NCBI GenBank assembly: GCA_902761275.1
Contig: CACWJS010000003.1
Span: 1 to 59,735, forward strand
Reading direction: 5' to 3'
DNA: 59,735 bases
Source: an uncultured bacterium
Lineage (GTDB): Bacteria; Verrucomicrobiota; Kiritimatiellia; RFP12; UBA1067
The notes beneath the pieces are model-generated. The model was given only the letters and a program-made list of their open reading frames with translations. It made no database searches and had not been told where the DNA came from. The translations under genes and the position numbers were made by a program. Within the stretch, counting starts at the first letter, position 1. Each line of letters starts with the position of its first letter. This document shows, piece by piece, positions 1,828-44,968 of this stretch.

Positions 1828-3915
1828 ATGAGAGCATCAAGCATAGCCGCTACGGCGTTCCTATTTTCCGCAATGACGACCTTCGCGGCCCCGGTAGAAT
1901 GGGATTTCCCGCGTATGGGGAGCTGCCACGAGGGAATTGCCTTTGGCGACGGCAAGACTGGCGTCCTCGTCTGGGGTGGCGGTGACGAGATTCGCCTCAC
2001 GGTCGGGCGCTCCGACCTATGGGACCACCGTGGCGGATATTCCTGGATGCCAGAGCAGAACTACACGAACATCGTCGCCGCCGTCCATTCTGGCGACAAG
2101 GACCGCCTCTACGGACTCTTCAAGAAGGAAACGCCGAAGGGCCAGCCGCGTAACCCATATATGCTTCCGCTTGGTCGCGTCGTGATCAAGGTTCCCGGCA
2201 AGACGCTGAAGCGTGGCACGCTTGACCCGTTCACCGGGCTCGGTAGTCTTGAGTTCGCCGAAGGCGGCGCGGTTGGCCTTGCGATGTCGAAAATGGTAGG
2301 TGGCACCTTTGCGATGGCGTTTCCCAAGGATGTCGCGTTTGAGGCCAAGACGATTCCCGCAACCGACTTCCCTGTCTATGAAAGACAGCTCAAGCCGATT
2401 GGCTTCGAGAAGGCGAGCGTGTTTGATGTTATTGACGGGGACGGAAGCTGCGGCGGCCTGCGCTGGAATCTCCCCGCAGATCCATCCGTCTGGCTTTCCT
2501 GGTTGAAGAAGGACAGCGTGATTACTCTCAAGACGGGTCGCGGCGGCGACAAGACAGTGTATGCGGACGCAAGGCATTTCGACAGCATTGCGAAGGAATC
2601 GGTCGCGTACTGGAAGCTTTTCTGGTCCGAAGGTGCGCGCGTGAAAGTGCCCGATCCCGTGATCCAGCGCGTCTACGACTACGGCATGTACCGCTTCGGC
2701 GCGATGACCGATCCGGACGGCGTTCCGGCGGGGCTCCAGGGCGTGTGGCTCGAGGATGACAGGCTCGTTCCGTGGAACGGCGACTACCACTTCAACATCA
2801 ACGTGCAGGAGTGCTACTCGCCCGCGTTCCGCGGCGGGCATTTCAAGAACCTTCTGCCGCTTTTCAGGATGGTCCTCTCGTGGCGGCCGCTTCTCAAGGA
2901 CAACGCAAAGAAGTTCGTCGGCATCGACAATGGCTATGTCCTTCCGCATTCCGTCGACGACCGCGGCGTTTGCATTGGCGGCTTTTGGACCGGCACTATC
3001 GACCACGGCTCTACGGCGTGGGTCGCTGCGATGATGATGCGGTATGTGCGCTATTCGGGCGATGTTGAGTTTCTAAAGGGCGGTGCGTTCGACTTCATGA
3101 AGGGCGCGATGAATGTCTACCGCGCGATGATGGAGGAGGAAGGCGGCAAGCTCACGCTTCCGCTTGGGCCTTCGCCTGAGTGGGGTGGCTCCGACGTGAG
3201 AAGCGCGGTCGGGCGCGATCCGAGTTTCCAACTCGCCGCGGCCCATCGTCTCGCGCGCGATCTCGTCGACGCGGCGAAGCTTCTTGGTGTGCAGCCGGAT
3301 GCGATGTGGCTCGATGTCGAAAAGCGTCTTCCGCTGTATTCTGCCGGGGAGAGCGGCATAGAACTTTTCCGAGGCCAGGCGCTGACGGAATCTCACCGTC
3401 ACCACTCCCACATGGCGGGGCTTTATCCTTTTGACACGCTCGACCTCTCCGACAAGGAGACGCGCGATGTCGCGGCGAAGACCTACGGGACATGGGTCTA
3501 CCGTGGAACCGGGCTTTGGTCGGGGTGGTGCGTCCCGTGGGCGTCGATACTCAATACGCATGTCGGGAACGCCCAGGCGGCGGTGGAGTTCCTCAGGTCG
3601 TGGGATGCGTACTTCTGCAACCCTGGTCACGGCTCTTTGCACAACGCGTACGCGCCTGGCTTTTCGACATTCACGATCTTTGGTAGCTTTGCCGGCTCTG
3701 GCGACGGGCAGATAATGCAGATGGACGGACAGTGCGCGGCGGCGACGGCCGTCCTCGAGATGATGGCGCACGAGGTGAACGGCAAGGTCGAGTTTTTCAA
3801 GGGCTGCCCCGAGTCGTGGCGCGAAGTCTCGTTCGAGAACCTTGCGCTTTCCGACGGTCGCCGCGTAAACGGCCGCCGCATCGACGGGAAGATTGCAATC
3901 GAGGAAGTGAAGTAA
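1828..3915 (+). CDS. Secreted GH95-family glycoside hydrolase (alpha-L-fucosidase/galactosidase type)
   Basis: A 695-residue enzyme predicted to release terminal alpha-L-fucose (or alpha-L-galactose) from glycans. Residues 1-20 are a signal peptide (MRASSIAATAFLFSAMTTFA). GH95 marks are visible: GLQGVWLEDDRLVPW, then DYHFNINVQ with the activating Asn pair at about 323/325; GPSPEW with the acid Glu near 451; ESHRHHSHMAGLYP; and QMDGQ with the general-base Asp near 633. It is somewhat shorter than the usual 750-800 residues. It stands alone between a divergent V-ATPase operon and a repeat region. Substrate choice within GH95 cannot be read from the sequence. Confidence 0.85.
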   Translation: MRASSIAATAFLFSAMTTFAAPVEWDFPRMGSCHEGIAFGDGKTGVLVWGGGDEIRLTVGRSDLWDHRGGYSWMPEQNYTNIVAAVHSGDKDRLYGLFKKETPKGQPRNPYMLPLGRVVIKVPGKTLKRGTLDPFTGLGSLEFAEGGAVGLAMSKMVGGTFAMAFPKDVAFEAKTIPATDFPVYERQLKPIGFEKASVFDVIDGDGSCGGLRWNLPADPSVWLSWLKKDSVITLKTGRGGDKTVYADARHFDSIAKESVAYWKLFWSEGARVKVPDPVIQRVYDYGMYRFGAMTDPDGVPAGLQGVWLEDDRLVPWNGDYHFNINVQECYSPAFRGGHFKNLLPLFRMVLSWRPLLKDNAKKFVGIDNGYVLPHSVDDRGVCIGGFWTGTIDHGSTAWVAAMMMRYVRYSGDVEFLKGGAFDFMKGAMNVYRAMMEEEGGKLTLPLGPSPEWGGSDVRSAVGRDPSFQLAAAHRLARDLVDAAKLLGVQPDAMWLDVEKRLPLYSAGESGIELFRGQALTESHRHHSHMAGLYPFDTLDLSDKETRDVAAKTYGTWVYRGTGLWSGWCVPWASILNTHVGNAQAAVEFLRSWDAYFCNPGHGSLHNAYAPGFSTFTIFGSFAGSGDGQIMQMDGQCAAATAVLEMMAHEVNGKVEFFKGCPESWREVSFENLALSDGRRVNGRRIDGKIAIEEVK

Positions 3916-36623: not shown

Positions 36624-38006
36624 ATGAAAGTCAATGACCATATTTCCGTCCGCTATCTCCTCGCAATCGCGGGGTTAGGCGGGCTTCTCTACGGCATCGA
36701 CTTTGGCGTCATCGCCGCAGCGTCTCCCTACATCAAGGCACTCGGACTATTCACCGACGCCGAGCTTAGTTGGGTCGTCGGAGCAGTCCTCTTCGGCGGC
36801 ATCGTTTCATCGCTTACGGCGGGGATGCTTGCCGAGCGGTTCGGCAGGAAACGCATGATTGTCGCTGCGGCTGCGCTCTTCTTCGTGGCTGTTCCTACTG
36901 TCTGCCTTTCGGAAAAGTCTCTTTGGACGATGCTTTTCGGACGCGTCCTCCAGGGCATGAGCGCCGGATACATGGCCGTCGTCATGCCGATGTATCTTAC
37001 CGAGACCCTGCCGCCGGAGATTAGAGGACGCGGCACCGGCGTTTTCCAGTTCTGCCTCGGGCTTGGCCTTGTCGCGGCTGCTGCTGTCGGATATTTTGTC
37101 GCGAAGCTGTACGGCGCGGCGGACGCGCCGGCGGAGCTTGTCGCGGATGCCGCTAAATCCGCTGCGTGGAAGATGAACTTCTGGTGGACGCTCGCTCCTG
37201 TTGCGGCGCTTTTTTTCGGCAGTCTGCGGCTCCCGGAAAGCCCGGTGTGGGAGAAAAGGGTAAAGTGTGGGAGTGGAGGAGTGAGGGAGTGTGGGAGTGG
37301 AGGAGTTAACTCACCCACTCACCCACTCACCCACTCCCTCACTTTGAATTCCCGCCGCTATGTCGTGCCTTTTCTCTTGGCGGTCGCCGTCCTGACGCTC
37401 AACAAGACGACGGGGATGAGTTCCGTCACCAGCTATTCGGTGATGATATTTCAGAAGGCCGGTTTCGCCGGAGCTCTTGGGAATGTTGGCGACTTTGCGA
37501 TCAAGCTGACGAATCTCGTCGTCACGCTCGTCGCGGCGGCGATCATCGACCGCGTTGGCCGCACACGGCTCTTGAAGATCGGCACGGCGGGCATGACGCT
37601 CGGGCTTGCGGCAATTGGCGGCGTCCTTCTCGCCATTGAGCGTTTCGGAGTCGCTGCGAACAGCGTGACAGGGATTTTCTGTCTCGCGGCGTTTTTCGTG
37701 ATGCAGGTTTTTTACGCGCTGGGTCCCGGCATCTGCGTGTGGCTAGTCCTTTCCGAGCTGATGCCTTCGCGCATCCGCGCCAATGGCATGTCGATTGCGC
37801 TTTTCATGAACCAGTTCGTCGCGTGGGGGCTCGCGTCGTCGTTCCTGCCGTGGGTCAACGCCTGGGGATGGGCGTCGATGTTCTTCTTCTTCGCCGTTAA
37901 CGGAGTAATCTACTTTATTGTCTCGCTCTTCATCCCCGAGACCAGGGGCAAGACGCTGGAGGAGCTTGAACATCTTTTTGATAAAAAGCTTGGAGCTGAG
38001 AGCTGA
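36624..38006 (+). CDS. Sugar porter (MFS) with repeat-derived central loop and C-terminus
   Basis: A 460-residue 12-helix major facilitator of the sugar porter family: GLLYGIDFGVIAAA, AGMLAERFGRKRMI, GRVLQGMSAGYMAVVMPMYL and PESPVWEKR in the first half, then DRVGRTRLL, LVLSELMPSRIRANGMS and the ending PETRGKTLEELEHLF. Residues about 211-242, in the cytoplasmic loop between helices 6 and 7, are encoded by the GTTAAC-centred octamer element (CGSGGVRECGSGGVN, SPTHPLTHSLTL). The stop codon at 38004-38006 lies inside a heptamer array, so the last residues KLGAES are repeat-encoded. It likely imports sugar released by the neighbouring enzymes. Confidence 0.88.
   Translation: MKVNDHISVRYLLAIAGLGGLLYGIDFGVIAAASPYIKALGLFTDAELSWVVGAVLFGGIVSSLTAGMLAERFGRKRMIVAAAALFFVAVPTVCLSEKSLWTMLFGRVLQGMSAGYMAVVMPMYLTETLPPEIRGRGTGVFQFCLGLGLVAAAAVGYFVAKLYGAADAPAELVADAAKSAAWKMNFWWTLAPVAALFFGSLRLPESPVWEKRVKCGSGGVRECGSGGVNSPTHPLTHSLTLNSRRYVVPFLLAVAVLTLNKTTGMSSVTSYSVMIFQKAGFAGALGNVGDFAIKLTNLVVTLVAAAIIDRVGRTRLLKIGTAGMTLGLAAIGGVLLAIERFGVAANSVTGIFCLAAFFVMQVFYALGPGICVWLVLSELMPSRIRANGMSIALFMNQFVAWGLASSFLPWVNAWGWASMFFFFAVNGVIYFIVSLFIPETRGKTLEELEHLFDKKLGAES
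37264..37344. repeat. Bipartite octamer element with GTTAAC centre, intragenic copy
   Basis: The G-rich arm has units GGGAGTGG/AGGAGTGA; the C-rich arm has tandem CTCACCCA units. They meet at GAGTTAACTC (GTTAAC at 37305-37310). It is the reverse complement of 4569-4642 with one additional 8-base unit and keeps the frame of the transporter gene. Confidence 0.85.
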
Positions 38007-38056
38007 GAGCTTAGAGCTCAGAGCTTGAAGCTTAGAGCTTAGAGCTGGGAGCAGAG
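37987..38056. repeat. Heptamer array AGCTTRG, left arm at the S23 gene
   Basis: Ten 7-base units from AGCTTGG to AGCAGAG. The transporter stop codon TGA (38004-38006) lies in it, and the array ends 11 bases before the S23-family ATG. The S23 ribosome site GAGGAGA is the immediate continuation. Confidence 0.9.
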
Positions 38057-38067
38057 GAGAAGTGAGT

Positions 38068-38430
38068 ATGATAAAGAGTTATAGAGAACTGAAGGTTTGG
38101 CAAAAGGCCATGGACTTTGCAGAACATGTGTACAAGGTCCAGAGGCGCTTTCCTGCCGAGGAACGCTATGGCCTCTGCGACCAGCTGCGCCGTGCAGCAG
38201 TTTCCATTCCTTCTAATATCGCGGAAGGTCGTGGCAGGGATACGGCTAAGGACTTTTCGCACTTCCTGTCACTTGCCCGGGGCTCTTTAAATGAAGTCAC
38301 AACTCAGTTGGAACTGGCGGTTCGGCTTGGCTATCTTGATTCCGGAAGCGGCCTCGATGAGGAATCCCAGGAGATCGGGAAAATGCTGAATGCCATGATA
38401 CAACGTCTTAAACAATCAAAACAACCCTAA
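38068..38430 (+). CDS. S23/IVP-family four-helix-bundle protein
   Basis: A 120-residue protein with the family signature: SYRELKVWQKAMDFAEHVYK, FPAEERYGLCDQLRRAAVSI, PSNIAEGRGRDTAKDFSHFL and LARGSLNEVTTQLELAVRLG, ending in the helix EIGKMLNAMIQRLK. This family is known from intervening sequences inside 23S rRNA genes and is structurally related to Avd of diversity-generating retroelements; its molecular job is unknown. No rRNA gene or reverse transcriptase is present here. The gene sits between a ten-unit and a six-unit heptamer array in inverted orientation, which suggests a movable unit. GAGGAGA before ATG 38068 decides the start over the GTG at 38062. Confidence 0.9.
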   Translation: MIKSYRELKVWQKAMDFAEHVYKVQRRFPAEERYGLCDQLRRAAVSIPSNIAEGRGRDTAKDFSHFLSLARGSLNEVTTQLELAVRLGYLDSGSGLDEESQEIGKMLNAMIQRLKQSKQP

Positions 38431-38454
38431 GGAAAGGAAACGCTTAGTGACGGT

Positions 38455-38496
38455 AGCTCTCAGCTAAAAGCTAAAAGCTCCAAGCTCTAAGCTGAA
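38455..38496. repeat. Heptamer array, right arm at the S23 gene (inverted)
   Basis: Six units AGCTCTC, AGCTAAA, AGCTAAA, AGCTCCA, AGCTCTA, AGCTGAA. Read on the other strand they give AGCTTAG, AGCTTGG and so on, so the orientation is opposite to the left arm. Confidence 0.85.
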
Positions 38497-38501
38497 AAAC
38501 C

Positions 38502-39530
38502 ATGATAACTCAAACATCAATTAGCTACTACGGGCTCAACTACGTAGAACACGCCGAGGCGGACTTCAAGGAAATGAAGGCGCACGGCGTCACCCAGGTG
38601 ATTCTCGCAGTGACGGAGTTCGACTTCGACTTCTGGCGGCCGAACATCCCCGCCATCGTCGACAAGGCGCACGAGCTGGGGCTCCGCGTCCTCATCGACC
38701 CGTGGGGCAACGGCAAGTACTTTGGCGGCGAACAGGTCTCGAAGTTCCTTCAGGACAACGTCGAAAACCGCCAGGTCTCGGCCTTGACCGGCGAGAAGCT
38801 TCCCTACGCCTGCTTCAACACGAACAGCTATCGCGACTACTTCAAGAACTTCTGCACGACGCTCGCCCGCGAAGCGAAGCCCGACGGCTTCTTCTGGGAC
38901 GAGCCGCACTACGCCTTCCCGAAGGGCATCGCCTCCATCACTGGCGGCGTTGCGGACGACTGGACGTGCTATTGTCCCGTCTGCCGCAAGCGTTTCGAGG
39001 ACTACTATGGCTACCCGATGCCGCGCTACATGACGAACGACGTGAAGCAGTTCCGCTGGCGCGAGGCGCTCGTTGTCCTCTCCGAGACCTCGAAGGCGCT
39101 GAAGGAGATCGACCCGAAGCTGGAGATCACCTGCTGTGTCCACGCGACGCAGAACGGCTACTACGTCTCGGAGTATCGCGGCTACGACAATTGGGATATG
39201 GTTGGCGCGTGTCCTTATTTCGACGTGTTCTCGACGACGATCATCAACTGGGCGCTTCCCGAGGACTTCTTCCTCGACATCACGCGTCGCACGGTTGCCA
39301 TCGCCAAGAAGTACGGCAAGCAGTCCGAGCGCTGGCTAATGGGCTACTACAAGCAGCCGAAGGACTGGAACCAGGTTGCACGCTGGGTCGACCTCGCCGC
39401 CAAGGAGGGCGTTGACCGCCTTGCCGCCTGGACGTACCGCGGTGGCTACGGCACGGTCGTCGGCGCGCCCGATGCGCTTAAACTCTGGGATACAATTGGT
39501 GAGAACTATAGGAGGGTATTGGGGATTTAA
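38502..39530 (+). CDS. TIM-barrel protein resembling a glycoside hydrolase, family not assigned
   Basis: A 342-residue cytoplasmic-looking protein without signal peptide. It shows barrel-type strands with acidic ends: ILAVTEFDFDFWRPNI, LRVLIDPWGNGKYFGG, KPDGFFWDEPHYAFP (candidate catalytic Asp/Glu), ITCCVHATQNGYY and LMGYYKQPKDW. CYCPVCRKRFEDYYG may bind zinc. Such proteins occur in sugar clusters of Lentisphaerae-type bacteria. A glycosidase role is inferred from fold-like features and context only. The stop codon is immediately followed by a heptamer array. Confidence 0.6.
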   Translation: MITQTSISYYGLNYVEHAEADFKEMKAHGVTQVILAVTEFDFDFWRPNIPAIVDKAHELGLRVLIDPWGNGKYFGGEQVSKFLQDNVENRQVSALTGEKLPYACFNTNSYRDYFKNFCTTLAREAKPDGFFWDEPHYAFPKGIASITGGVADDWTCYCPVCRKRFEDYYGYPMPRYMTNDVKQFRWREALVVLSETSKALKEIDPKLEITCCVHATQNGYYVSEYRGYDNWDMVGACPYFDVFSTTIINWALPEDFFLDITRRTVAIAKKYGKQSERWLMGYYKQPKDWNQVARWVDLAAKEGVDRLAAWTYRGGYGTVVGAPDALKLWDTIGENYRRVLGI

Positions 39531-39599
39531 GCTTGGAGCTTAGAGCTGAGAGCTTAGAGCTTGGAGCTGAGAGCTTAGAGCTTGGAGCGGGGAGATTGG
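39530..39599. repeat. Heptamer array filling the gap before the SIS gene
   Basis: Ten units (AGCTTGG, AGCTTAG, AGCTGAG ... AGCGGGG, AGATTGG). It starts on the last base of the preceding TAA stop and ends one base before ATG 39601. The last units supply the purine-rich ribosome site GGGGAG. Confidence 0.92.
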
Positions 39600-39600
39600 A

Positions 39601-40302
39601 ATGTCGGAATATTTGGAGAGAATTGTAGATGTCCTGCAGAGGGTTGAAGCGGAAGAGGCGGCGGCGCTTTCTTCTGCTTCGGACGCCGTTGCTGACGTAA
39701 TCTGCCGCGACGGAATCATCCATGTCTTCGGCTGCGGTCACTCCCATCTGCCTGCGCTTGACGCGTTCTATCGCGCTGGCGGGCTTGCATGTGTGTCGCC
39801 AGTCCTTGACGTTGACCTTATGCTGCATGACGGCGCGGCGAAGTCGAGCCGGATGGAGAAGATGCCGGGGATCGCGTCGGAAGTATATCGCCGCCACGGC
39901 GTGAAACAGGGCGACCTGTTCGTCGTCATATCGGCGAGCGGCAAGAACGCCGCGCCTGTGGAGATGCTTCGCGCCGCGAAGGCGGCAGGGGTAAAGACTG
40001 TAGCCGTTTCCTCGTCGGCGTACAAGCCGCATGGCGGTGTACTTCTGGACGAGGCGGACATTGCTGTCGATTGCAAAGTGCCGCATGGCGACGCAGTGAT
40101 CGACGTAGGCGAGGCAAAGATGGGCGGGCTTTCGACGTATGCCTCGCTTTTCATACTCAACACTGCGCTGATCGAAGGTGCGAAGAAGGCACTCGCGAGA
40201 GGCGTAACGCCGCCAGTCTACACGAGCGGCAACGTAGACGGCGGAACGGCGCGCAATGTCGCGCTGGAAGAGCGGTACTTCGGGAGGGTTAAGCATTTGT
40301 AG
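39601..40302 (+). CDS. SIS-domain sugar-phosphate isomerase-like protein
   Basis: A 233-residue protein of the SIS (sugar isomerase) fold, like the UPF0309/phosphoheptose-type group. It shows DGIIHVFGCGHSHLPALDAF, a phosphosugar-binding loop VVISASGKNAAPVEMLRAAK, VKTVAVSSSAY and an ending GGTARNVALEERYF typical of the group. It probably acts on an amino-sugar phosphate, fitting the GH20-like enzyme, kinase and transporter around it; the exact reaction is unknown. Arrays adjoin both ends. Confidence 0.8.
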   Translation: MSEYLERIVDVLQRVEAEEAAALSSASDAVADVICRDGIIHVFGCGHSHLPALDAFYRAGGLACVSPVLDVDLMLHDGAAKSSRMEKMPGIASEVYRRHGVKQGDLFVVISASGKNAAPVEMLRAAKAAGVKTVAVSSSAYKPHGGVLLDEADIAVDCKVPHGDAVIDVGEAKMGGLSTYASLFILNTALIEGAKKALARGVTPPVYTSGNVDGGTARNVALEERYFGRVKHL

Positions 40303-40440
40303 CTTAGAGCTTGGAGCTTAGAGCTTGGAGCTTGGAGCTTAGAGCTTGGAGCTTAGAGCTTGGAGCTTAGAGCTTAGAGCTTGGAGCTTGGAGCTTAGAG
40401 CTTAGAGCTTAGAGCTTGGAGCTGGGAGCTTAGAGTGGGA
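40301..40440. repeat. Longest heptamer array (about 20 units)
   Basis: Nineteen consecutive AGCTTAG/AGCTTGG units (one AGCTGGG) run from 40301 to 40433, plus the degenerate unit AGTGGGA. It starts in the TAG stop of the SIS gene and ends at the GTG start of the kinase gene. Adjacent A/G variants alternate irregularly, so it is not one simple duplication. Confidence 0.95.
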
Positions 40441-41301: not shown

Positions 41302-42849
41302 ATGCACAATGCAATTAAACTCGCTGCGGTTTGCACCGCTCTTCTGCCGTTCGCCGCGTTCGCCGGGAATAAGGCGAATCCCGACGCAATAGAACTTGCG
41401 CCGTTGCCCATGCCGGTGCAGTTCAAGGCCGACATAGACAAGCCGGTAGCTTTCGACGCATCCACGACGGTCGCTCTTGAATGTCCCGACGCCAAAGGCG
41501 CGGAATGGCTCGCCGTTCATTTCAGGGAATGGTACGGAGACCAGTCGCCGAAGGTCGTTGCCTCCAACCTTTCAACCTTTCAACCTTTCAACCTTTCAAC
41601 CTCCCCGGAGGCCTATTCCATGGCATCCGGCGTGTCGGGAGTCAAGATTGCTGCTCGCACTCTTGCGGGCATTAGGTGGGCGGCGTACACATTGCGGCAG
41701 CTCGCCATTGCGAAGCGCGGCACGTTCAAGACCGAGGGACGCATACTGCCGACGCTGGAGATTTCTGACTCTCCGCACCTCGCGTTCCGCGCAGTCCATC
41801 TCTGCTGGTTCCCCGAGGTCAGGCCGCAGCAGATGGAACGCGCGATTCGCCTCGCGGCGCTTCTCAAGTTCAACTACGCGATCATCGAGCCGTGGGGCAT
41901 GTACGCGAGCGAGAAGCATCCGTGGTGGCATTGGCCGAATCCGACGATGACGAAGGAGGAGGTGCGTCGTCTCGCGGCGATAGGACGCGACCTCGGCATC
42001 ACGCTCATCCCGCAGATCAACGCGTTCGGGCACGCCTCGTCGTCGCGCGGCTGCACGCTTAAGCACATGGTGCTTGACCTCTCCCCAGAATACGAGCCGC
42101 TGTTCGAGCCGGGCGGGTGGAACTGGTGTCTTACCAACCCCGAGACACAGCGGGTGCTACGCGAGCTGATTGCCGAGATGCACGAGGATTTCGGCAATCC
42201 ACCGTTCTTCCACCTCGGATGCGACGAGGCGCAGCCGCCGACGTGTCCGGAGTGCCGCAAGCGGCCGTACGGCGAACTCGTCTGCGAGCACATCGTCGGT
42301 CTCGCCGACTTCGTCAAGTCACGCGGCGCGAGGGCGATGATCTGGCACGACATGCTGCTTGAGAAGGGCGATCCTCGCTGGAAGGGCTTTGTTCACTTTG
42401 GCTCGAAGACGACTGCGACGCTCGCAGACACGCTTTCCAAGGACGTGATCATCTGCGACTGGCAGTATTCCTACGGCAACATGAAGGAAGCTCGCGGCGA
42501 TTGGCCGACGATGGGCTATTTCAAGGAGAAGGGCTTTGCCGTCGCAGGATGCCCGTGGATGAACTACAACTCGATGAAACCGATGGCCGACTACATCGCC
42601 AAGATCGGCGGTTTCGGTTTCATTGAGACGACGTGGCACCATTTGCGCGGCGACGACTGGATCAACATGTACAGATACGCCTCGGCCGCCGCGTGGGGGA
42701 CTTCCGTTCCGCAGACTCCGCCGATGTACAACACCCCGTTCGGCAATGCCCTGCGTCTCGTAGGACACGACATGAAGACGACGGACTATCTTGACACGGG
42801 TCACCTCAACTACCAGGTGCCGCCGGGATGGTGGGTGGATAACAATTAG
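41302..42849 (+). CDS. Exported GH20-like beta-N-acetylhexosaminidase
   Basis: A 515-residue enzyme with a signal peptide (MHNAIKLAAVCTALLPFAAFA). Residues about 30-135 form the GH20b-like N-domain. The barrel has HLCWFPEVRP, GITLIPQINAFGHASSSRGC and the GH20 catalytic pair in FHLGCDEAQP (Asp308-Glu309), followed by MIWHDMLLEKGD. It would release terminal N-acetylhexosamine from host glycans. Residues about 88-101 (NLSTFQPFNLST) are encoded by an octamer array inserted in a surface loop of the N-domain. The TAG stop begins a heptamer array. Confidence 0.82.
   Translation: MHNAIKLAAVCTALLPFAAFAGNKANPDAIELAPLPMPVQFKADIDKPVAFDASTTVALECPDAKGAEWLAVHFREWYGDQSPKVVASNLSTFQPFNLSTSPEAYSMASGVSGVKIAARTLAGIRWAAYTLRQLAIAKRGTFKTEGRILPTLEISDSPHLAFRAVHLCWFPEVRPQQMERAIRLAALLKFNYAIIEPWGMYASEKHPWWHWPNPTMTKEEVRRLAAIGRDLGITLIPQINAFGHASSSRGCTLKHMVLDLSPEYEPLFEPGGWNWCLTNPETQRVLRELIAEMHEDFGNPPFFHLGCDEAQPPTCPECRKRPYGELVCEHIVGLADFVKSRGARAMIWHDMLLEKGDPRWKGFVHFGSKTTATLADTLSKDVIICDWQYSYGNMKEARGDWPTMGYFKEKGFAVAGCPWMNYNSMKPMADYIAKIGGFGFIETTWHHLRGDDWINMYRYASAAAWGTSVPQTPPMYNTPFGNALRLVGHDMKTTDYLDTGHLNYQVPPGWWVDNN
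41565..41602. repeat. Octamer array CAACCTTT inside the GH20-like gene
   Basis: Four full identical units plus CAACCTC. Same unit family as 49338-49401 (complement) and 51103-51139. Frame is kept. Confidence 0.92.
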
Positions 42850-42903
42850 CTTGGAGCTTAGAGCTGAGAGCTTGGAGCGTAGAGCTGAGAGCTTGGAGCT
42901 GGG
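42848..42903. repeat. Heptamer array behind the GH20-like gene
   Basis: Eight units (AGCTTGG, AGCTTAG, AGCTGAG, AGCTTGG, AGCGTAG, AGCTGAG, AGCTTGG, AGCTGGG) starting in the TAG stop codon. Confidence 0.92.
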
Positions 42904-42941: not shown

Positions 42942-43694
42942 ATGAACATAAAGAAGATGAACAAGGGGCTCGACTTCCTGCGCGAGAAGTACGGAGCCAA
43001 GAATGGTGTGATAACCATCAAGGACGGGCATTGCTTCGTCGGAGCGACGCCGCTTTTGCCCGGGCGCATGGAGCGCAAGATCGTGGAACTCAAGAAGATG
43101 ACCGAGAACGGCACGCTCGAGGGCGTCTCGACTCTGCGCTTTGCGTCGTTTGCGTCGAAGGGCGTTAGTTTGGAGGCGATGCTCGCGAAGGAACTTGACC
43201 TCGCCGCGTATCTCGGCGCGTCCGACGTGGTGCGCGTGATGGCCGTTGCAAACGGCCCTGCAATCAACGTCCTCGCCAAGCTTGCCAATGACGTGAATGT
43301 ATCCGTCGAAATCGGCGCAGGGCTTCCGAAGGGCGAAGCCGGATATGACCGCCACGAGATTATCGCGAAGCGCGGCGTTGCCTGCGACCAGACGGTTGAC
43401 ACCCACACCAAGCATGAGTCAATCCGTTGCTGGGGGTCGGACGGCATGGAGGAATATACCGACGTCGATACCGAACTCTTCGGGCTTTCCTACGATGAGA
43501 TCTGGAATGTCCGCGCGGCATTCGCGCTTCTTCAGGGGCGCGCCGACGCGAAGGTCTGGAAGGCCGCTTGGGCGAAGGCAACGAAGGCCGCCAAGCTCGC
43601 GTTCGCAGCTGACAAGTCGAAGGCGGCGAAGACCATCGCCGTAAAGAAGGGCCTTGACACCAACCAGTCGATAAAGGTTGCAGAAGTCAGATAA
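42942..43694 (+). CDS. Unknown protein of the sugar cluster
   Basis: A 250-residue protein starting MNIKKMNKGLDFLREKYGAK, without signal peptide or membrane helix. It alternates strands and helices (VITIKDGHCFVGATPLLPGR; VLAKLANDVNVSVEIGAGLP; VACDQTVDTHTKHESI) and ends in a Lys/Ala-rich helical tail. Its middle part could belong to the substrate side of a Gfo/Idh-type fold, but no Rossmann motif is present and no family is claimed. It directly precedes a Gfo/Idh/MocA oxidoreductase and may be its partner. Confidence 0.6.
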   Translation: MNIKKMNKGLDFLREKYGAKNGVITIKDGHCFVGATPLLPGRMERKIVELKKMTENGTLEGVSTLRFASFASKGVSLEAMLAKELDLAAYLGASDVVRVMAVANGPAINVLAKLANDVNVSVEIGAGLPKGEAGYDRHEIIAKRGVACDQTVDTHTKHESIRCWGSDGMEEYTDVDTELFGLSYDEIWNVRAAFALLQGRADAKVWKAAWAKATKAAKLAFAADKSKAAKTIAVKKGLDTNQSIKVAEVR

Positions 43695-43779
43695 AGTTGA
43701 AGTGTAGAGTTCAAGTTCGAGAAAGAAAGATTCCACTCTCCAACTCCAACTCAAAACTCCAACTCGTCTCAATCCTGTC
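43695..43779. repeat. Inverted-repeat element, intergenic copy
   Basis: The left part GTTGAAGTGTAGAGTTCAAG is only loosely complementary to the right part. Bases 43730-43779 nearly equal 11174-11220, ending in the nonamer AATCCTGTC. It fills most of the gap before the oxidoreductase gene. Confidence 0.8.
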
Positions 43780-44883: not shown

Positions 44884-44968
44884 AGCTTGGCTTGTCCGCC
44901 GTAGCTCCGTTAGAAGCGAAGGCGGAAGCTTAGAGCTTAGAGCTTGGAGCTTTGAGCTTAGCGCTGAA
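44882..44968. repeat. Interrupted heptamer array behind the oxidoreductase gene
   Basis: It starts AGAGCTTGG in the TAG stop and is split by a 36-base insert with TCCGCC...GGCGGA ends (44895-44926). It then continues as AGCTTAG, AGCTTAG, AGCTTGG, AGCTTTG, AGCTTAG, CGCTGAA (44927-44968). Confidence 0.85.

Follow-up and report, generated by a model that had tools for sequence, protein, structure and literature searches.

Proteins of the S23/IVP family are very commonly annotated as 'four helix bundle protein', have no agreed function, and are known for their occurrence in rRNA IVSs. One such gene sits elsewhere, in an operon of protein genes of an uncultured Kiritimatiellia bacterium, between two inverted arrays of AGCTTRG-like heptamers. 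This raises the question of whether gene and arrays together form a unit that moves. Here we describe the locus in a window of 59,735 nucleotides (contig 3 of the genome, G000), and compare it with S23 genes and their flanks in other Bacteria and in Archaea.

An S23 gene between inverted heptamer arrays

The first-pass annotation had called the product of the small gene an S23/IVP protein, and profile searches place it in that family with room to spare, the curated cut-offs of both PF05635 (E 1.4e-40; 138.2 against 33.8 bits) and TIGR02436 (E 1.2e-39; 134.8 against 24 bits) being exceeded. A solved relative is 2GSC (E 2e-27), and homology to Avd is apparent from the bAvd profile (E 2.8e-6) and from DivGenRetAVD (E 2e-7), the latter at 31 bits, below its equivalog cut-off of 80. 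Of two candidate starts, the ATG at 38068 is more likely than the GTG at 38062.

The left array (Table 1) comprises 9.4 heptamer units, four of them exact AGCTTRG (TRF: period 7, 9.1 copies), and the right array six heptamers inverted with respect to the left, two of them exact (TRF), with an AGCTTRGx2 pattern match on the minus strand at 38480–38493; the ten left and six right copies counted previously hold only if degenerate units are included. The left array had also been described as lying across the transporter stop codon, and indeed it covers the last 20 nt of that ORF, stop codon included, while the ATG of the downstream gene follows 5 nt past the right arm. Aligned with the reverse complement of the right flank, the left flank gave a local score of 43 (z 8.9 against dinucleotide shuffles), the 95th percentile for control genes at the same loci being 22, and the RNA of the unit folds with its arms paired (z -4.35). 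The unit thus has the IVS layout of an S23 ORF within complementary ends, here between a transporter and another protein gene rather than in the 23S or 16S rRNA location of an IVS. S23 is its sole ORF, with no transposase, nuclease or RT inside, and a scan of the neighbouring genes found no RT, Y1 transposase or nuclease; a Y1 transposase is present only elsewhere in the genome, unlinked to the S23 unit. Every clear S23 gene of this genome is flanked by arrays, with a different motif at each.

Table 1. Features of the S23 locus and of arrays elsewhere in the window.
Feature	Position	Strand	Evidence or remark
Host gene, MFS sugar transporter	36624..38006	+	PF00083 E 1.3e-66; stop codon inside left array
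Gene-free inverted octamer array (GGAGTG../ACTCACCC)	37264..37336	+	In frame within the transporter's central loop
Left arm, ~9 AGCTTRG-like heptamers, G-rich	37987..38052	+	TRF; inverted match z 8.9
Whole S23 unit, ~510 bp	37987..38498	+	Missing at orthologous junction of G002, G012, G013
S23/IVP four-helix-bundle gene, 120 aa	38068..38430	+	PF05635, TIGR02436, 2GSC
Right arm, 6 heptamers, inverted vs left	38455..38496	-	TRF; AGCTTRGx2 pattern
Downstream host gene	38502..39530	+	91–97% aa identity in congeners
Gene-free AGCTTRG array	39530..39592	+	Starts in upstream stop codon; junction just a few nt long in G027
Gene-free AGCTTRG array, 19 units	40301..40433	+	Stop codon to next start codon
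Gene-free AGCTTRG array	42848..42903	+	At stop codon
Gene-free AGCTTRG array	44927..44965	+	Flanked by two co-directional genes; missing from G002

Inverted arms at S23 genes in general

If the arrays belong to the gene, short inverted arrays of period 7–8 nt should recur at other S23 genes, as the first-pass annotation had proposed to check, and they do. With domain-anchored flanks and a threshold of z > 5, inverted arms were found at 104 of 150 S23 genes and at four of 254 neighbouring genes. The former divide into 51/81 on genome contigs, 32/44 in the window's order (a set that counts the window's own unit twice), 7/7 on cyanobacterial plasmids and 14/18 on viral contigs, which were rejected as a negative control for that reason. 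An independent replicate, sampled evenly across the Gammaproteobacteria, gave arms at 18 of 26 S23 genes and at none of 11 controls. About 30% of S23 genes fall under the threshold, several of them with visible short arms. The genome-contig scan yielded 80 S23 loci, picked by similarity to a single alignment, from Methanophagales archaea and many bacterial phyla, including Lentisphaerae, Kiritimatiellae, Bacteroidota, Proteobacteria, Acidobacteria, Chloroflexi, Planctomycetes and CPR.

Other searches were less productive. A phage collection held no S23 match at E 0.01, PADLOC gave no match, and Rfam returned only below-threshold miRNA look-alikes for the arrays. Flanks of Xanthomonas XCC0516 were sought in the sampled class, which contained no Xanthomonas-level match (best 64% identity). 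Copy number can be high: one relative, G040 (L194–L197; 4.7 Mb), yields 23 S23 matches, and some of its ORFs contain two S23 domains.

Presence and absence of the unit as a block

In congeners, too, the transporter (85–86% aa identity to its orthologues in G002 and G004) is next to the gene that follows it here, both being highly conserved; three of these congeners lack the unit at this operon junction. That of G002 reads CATCTTTTTGAAAGGAAAAGGAAATGATAACTC, the two genes overlapping at ATGA where the window has its 510 bp. Since the unit is missing whole in all three, its gain or loss affected the entire block, in what is a between-species comparison with flanks of 82–92% DNA identity. In three further relatives (G004, G010, G027) the transporter junction is occupied by different arrays, which contain no gene.

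Empty sites devoid of gene and arrays, likewise proposed earlier as a check, are present in two other groups as well. In Bosea sp. OK403 an S23 unit lies between nuoC and nuoD and is common to a second Bosea genome; among the genomes inspected, ~15 have a spacer of 4–15 nt at this point, and most others an unrelated gene. Gaps of similar length had been candidates for further S23 units and were rejected, mostly containing that different gene. With an S23 unit in two genomes and the unrelated gene, of ~400 bp, in most others, nuoC–nuoD (L224–L237) seems to be an insertion hot spot. One Flavobacterium junction is occupied by an S23 unit in ~17 species and by a gene-free hairpin in others, and is nearly empty in some. 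The hairpin, ATCAAGAGCCAAGAT..ATCTTGGCTCTTG, is conserved among Flavobacterium species without S23 at this junction (L250, L252, L255, L258, L266, L267). Block presence or absence at orthologous sites, the general mark of a mobile element, is therefore seen for the window unit, in Bosea and in Flavobacterium.

Within one genome, G050, two copies (L192 and L193) match at 92% identity over 608 bp, from the left arm's outer end onwards; the sequence upstream differs, but the downstream gene is related. A second pair, L061 and L062 of G027, was set aside as a clean duplication, its flanks being homologous too. All of the comparisons are between species, and several of the genomes are incomplete metagenome assemblies; movement is read from between-species empty sites, and loss may account for single cases.

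Choice of site and strand

Downstream of a co-directional gene, units begin at the stop codon, the left arm starting at a median of -1 nt from it (quartiles -8.5 to 3, n=67); between the end of the right arm and the next ATG, the median distance is 14 nt (n=51). Units within co-directional gene pairs, as judged from ORF-based gene calls, are in sense in 44 cases and antisense in 11. The neighbours, named from their translated flanks where annotation gave no name, are functionally unrelated, and include nuoC–nuoD, sdhA–sdhB, accB–accC and ribonucleotide reductase subunits. Units also occur between cas genes, namely cas6–cas4 (type I-D) in two cyanobacteria and likewise cmr2–cmr3 (type III-B), all on cyanobacterial plasmids (L175, L177, L308). 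Selection against disruptive insertions could be part of the origin of this pattern.

Anatomy of the arms

The arms have a period of 7 in 79 units, 8 in 20 and 6 in five, and units of like period group together on the tree of S23 proteins (12 changes against a shuffled mean of 18.7; 0 of 200 shuffles as low), a tree in which many forks lack resolution. The coding strand of the left arm is G-rich, with G exceeding C in 83 of 88 units and falling below it in five (17/18 with G>C in the replicate). Beyond this, every locus has its own arm motif. When 61 heptamer loci were aligned, the sole shared feature was an AG core, occurring once per repeat, with A at 0.72 and G at 0.91 in adjacent positions (alignment score 2.22 against a maximum of 2.05 in 20 permuted sets).

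Similarity between arms (0.758) does not exceed that among repeats within an arm (0.78–0.80; difference -0.034), so that conserved, register-specific pairing of the arms, which we had considered, is not supported. The arms have a motif in common but are not exactly complementary, suggesting that a protein recognizes both ends; the formation of a hairpin by the arms is possible, though not finely conserved. The orthologous Flavobacterium insertion has a motif that drifted among species (CTAAGTTT, CAAAGGTT, ACAAAGTG), with the two arms of one species matching better than arms across species (35.8 against 25.3; permutation p 1e-4).

Copies per arm peak at 4–5, and in-phase runs of the AG core at five. 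The solved S23 relatives 2GSC and 2RLD were deposited with five chains each, and a title cited in PMC3936711 describes XCC0516 as five four-helix bundles. About five repeats per arm and five chains would together suggest one repeat per subunit, a correspondence that we regard as possible, if rather doubtful. At two loci (L010, L059) the S23 ORF runs on at its 3' end into the right-arm repeats, so that the protein has a C-terminal tail such as SNSHSNS or SPSPFTFT.

Gene-free arrays

The first-pass annotation had suggested that gene-free arrays in the window could be non-autonomous relatives of the unit. The AGCTTRG arrays themselves are real (Table 1), and where checked are mostly in sense orientation after stop codons. 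Counted by pattern search, AGCTTRG dimers have 51 matches in this genome and four across 35 relatives. GGGAATC, an S23-unit arm motif in the gammaproteobacterium G530, is comparably genome-specific, with 29 dimer matches there and none in 21 other S23-bearing gammaproteobacteria; several of the 29 are in inverted pairs ~100 bp apart. To this extent the suggestion is borne out. It does not extend to GTTGAAAR, arrays of which abound in four relatives (G046, G048, G039, G012) where the S23 units sampled have different motifs, and as a general rule trans-mobilization by motif fails there. The reading of gene-free arrays as non-autonomous relatives is thus only partly supported, and any action of S23 on them in trans would be hypothetical, the GTTGAAAR pattern counting against a simple rule.

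Several other arrays deserve mention. The accB–accC S23 gene of G530 (L293, 1460–1930), with its GGGAATC arms, appears frameshifted, so that the arms are intact and the gene decayed. An element of CTCCAACTC type, gene-free at window positions 43690–43770 and in L048 (~3490–3570), is common to the 42942/43801 junction and the transporter junction of G004, and the same motif is also found on either side of the S23 genes in L002 and L004. The same junction has a GTGTAGA/TCTACAC hairpin in G002 (L047, 8165–8310) and an ACAGGATT hairpin in G010 (L051, 8530–8670); one spacer can hold a different array family in each species. In the transporter, the central loop that contains the in-frame octamer array is variable among orthologues.

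How the unit may move

Genome comparison documents block presence or absence, an architecture kept across phyla, and a preference of site and strand. From these we conclude that the S23 unit is very probably mobile, and a compact mobile unit is, as an overall explanation, the one that we consider likely to be right. The picture that these sequences support best is that of a promoterless hitchhiker in operons, whose protein would read the unit's own ends and whose enzymes would be supplied in trans.

Such a unit would consist of a left array, a promoterless S23 gene and an inverted right array. Inserted in sense between operon genes, beside the upstream stop codon, it would be transcribed and translated by the host operon. 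The arms would be the ends of the element, read by its own S23 pentamer, and we lean towards such binding, which is predicted from the arms, as the way in which they are recognized. Each subunit may contact one AG-core repeat, which would explain why the period is constant at 7–8 nt, why ~5 copies are commonest, why the arms are symmetrically inverted, and why motifs diverge between units yet are matched within one. Pentamers might then bring both ends together, on DNA or on a single-strand hairpin. S23 has no known catalytic domain, and strand chemistry would therefore be carried out by nucleases and polymerases of the host or of other elements; to a trans-acting enzyme or a replication-linked ssDNA route we give an even chance. 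Arrays without a gene would be remnants of such ends, or non-autonomous ones.

RVT_1 was not found in 29 of 46 S23-bearing relatives, nor a Y1 transposase in 14 of the 46, among which many are incomplete, and an obligatory role for either is unsupported by these counts. Target-site duplications were sought in 93 units, where matches between a unit's own flanks were as frequent as those between cross-pairs (p 0.51); a single case, in Bosea, with AGGCGAAG on both sides, was suggestive.

Might the units then be hitchhikers on Y1 (HUH) transposases? In a scheme like that of IS200/IS605 or RAYT elements, the arms would be hairpins for transposases acting in trans, with S23 as accessory or cargo. 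This would fit the want of a target-site duplication, the hairpin-forming ends and the sense bias, and counts of Y1_Tnp and S23 are correlated given genome size (partial r 0.46, p 3e-4), which, as a correlation that ignores phylogeny, is a lead and not proof. It is nevertheless an unlikely explanation, given that the relatives lacking Y1_Tnp matches include four of 93–95% completeness (G036, G041, G044, G055). To our knowledge, REP-type elements also have no AG-core heptads with a period specific to S23.

A retroelement is similarly unlikely, or slightly more so. The arms would here fold the S23 message into a hairpin, an Avd-like S23 would deliver this RNA to an RT encoded elsewhere, and insertion would occur beside the stop codons of co-transcribed genes. 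The homology of S23 to Avd, the sense bias, the fixed strand asymmetry of the arms and the predicted RNA fold are all compatible with this, as is the RNA-hairpin nature of rRNA IVSs, which RNase III cuts (PMC4990558), and RT and S23 counts show a weak rank correlation (rho 0.35, p 0.007). Against it, the relatives in which no RVT_1 was found include G050 (10 S23 matches, 96% complete) and G027 (13 matches, 91%), 11 insertions are antisense, and register-specific pairing of the arms is not conserved.

Regulation offers another explanation, the arrays being binding sites of S23 as an autoregulator or as a post-transcriptional regulator of the operon, and the module being kept as useful. The arrays are placed at stop codons and ahead of start codons, their period tracks the S23 lineage, and MacGregor has argued for translational regulation by TAACTGA heptamers (PMC4679880). 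We think this improbable: the neighbours are of unrelated function, and the module is missing from the same operon in close relatives. Replication slippage, by which arrays would expand in loose intergenic DNA where S23 had inserted by chance, does alter copy number and would suit the many gene-free arrays of these genomes, but is refuted as a sufficient explanation, and is in our opinion highly improbable, since inverted pairing is ~40 times commoner around S23 genes than around their neighbours, the AG core is kept while other repeat positions vary, and strand asymmetry tracks the gene and not the chromosome.

Comparison with known systems

The compact mobile unit that we favour has much in common with the rRNA IVSs. 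The IVS in the 23S rRNA gene of Coxiella has an S23 ORF and terminal inverted repeats, with three tandem GACAGAT and a GACAGAA just before the S23 start codon, in a copy number that varies among strains (PMC4990558). With S23 ORF, inverted ends and heptamers, it appears to be the same unit placed at a special site; the idea of the IVS as a mobile element (Ralph and McClelland, as cited in PMC4990558) is in keeping with this. The IVSs of Leptospira and Coxiella (PMC4990558) share with our units the protein family, the sense ORF, a length of ~430–510 bp and complementary ends. They differ in residing in 23S rRNA helices, whereas units like that of the window occupy operons of diverse protein genes, have two multi-copy arms and gene-free copies, and extend over many bacterial phyla and archaea.

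Heptamer families have been described separately: TAACTGA in Beggiatoaceae, Cyanobacteria and Bacteroidetes (PMC4679880), GGGAATC in Xanthomonas and GGGGA(C/T)T in Nostoc (PMC4692102). They resemble the arms in their 7-nt period and intergenic position, often at gene junctions, and some form inverted pairs (70 in X. campestris); the Xanthomonas motif is that of the S23 arms in G530. In contrast to the units described here, neither PMC4679880 nor PMC4692102 mentions S23 or reports a mobility protein. Our full-text literature searches, which most subscription journals lie outside, found no paper joining heptamer repeats and S23 beyond rRNA.

Like REP/RAYT elements and MITEs, S23 arrays are short intergenic inverted repeats in which an apparently autonomous unit coexists with gene-free copies. 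Unlike them, the S23 unit contains no transposase, with no linked Y1 transposase, as in REP/RAYT, and neither the internal transposase nor, in the 93 units examined, the target-site duplication of DDE/IS-type elements, and its ends are unit-specific arrays of 7–8-mers. Avd of DGRs is a homologous four-helix-bundle protein, from which the window unit differs in having no RT among its neighbours and in the low DivGenRetAVD score. A model for the proposed reading of the arms may be TRAP, a ring protein that reads evenly spaced (G/U)AG repeats, about one per subunit. The analogy would be with an S23 ring on AG-containing repeats; it involves no homology, the inverted arms are not explained by the reading of single-stranded RNA alone, and S23 binding is a prediction.

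S23 has been flagged as a putative CRISPR-associated (cas) protein (PMC3936711), of which the insertion of S23 units between cas genes offers a plainer reading. If the unit is mobile, S23 would occur in cas, nuo, sdh and acc operons by hitchhiking and not for its function, and what S23 does would become directly testable, its own predicted binding site being at hand at each locus. Previously seen mainly as a passenger of rRNA genes, S23 is found here in an array-bracketed unit in operons, which suggests a widespread and unusually small mobile element. More tentatively, and with somewhat less than even confidence, we propose that S23 units are a universal class of very small, nuclease-free mobile elements in Bacteria and Archaea, in which either inverted end, with its ~5 AG-core heptads or octads, would be read by a pentamer, the 23S IVS would be one landing site, and TAACTGA, GGGAATC and cyanobacterial tandem heptamers would be non-autonomous or residual ends. 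Were S23 the protein of such a heptad-ended mobile unit, a single model would account for the origin of rRNA IVSs and for many of the heptamer families.
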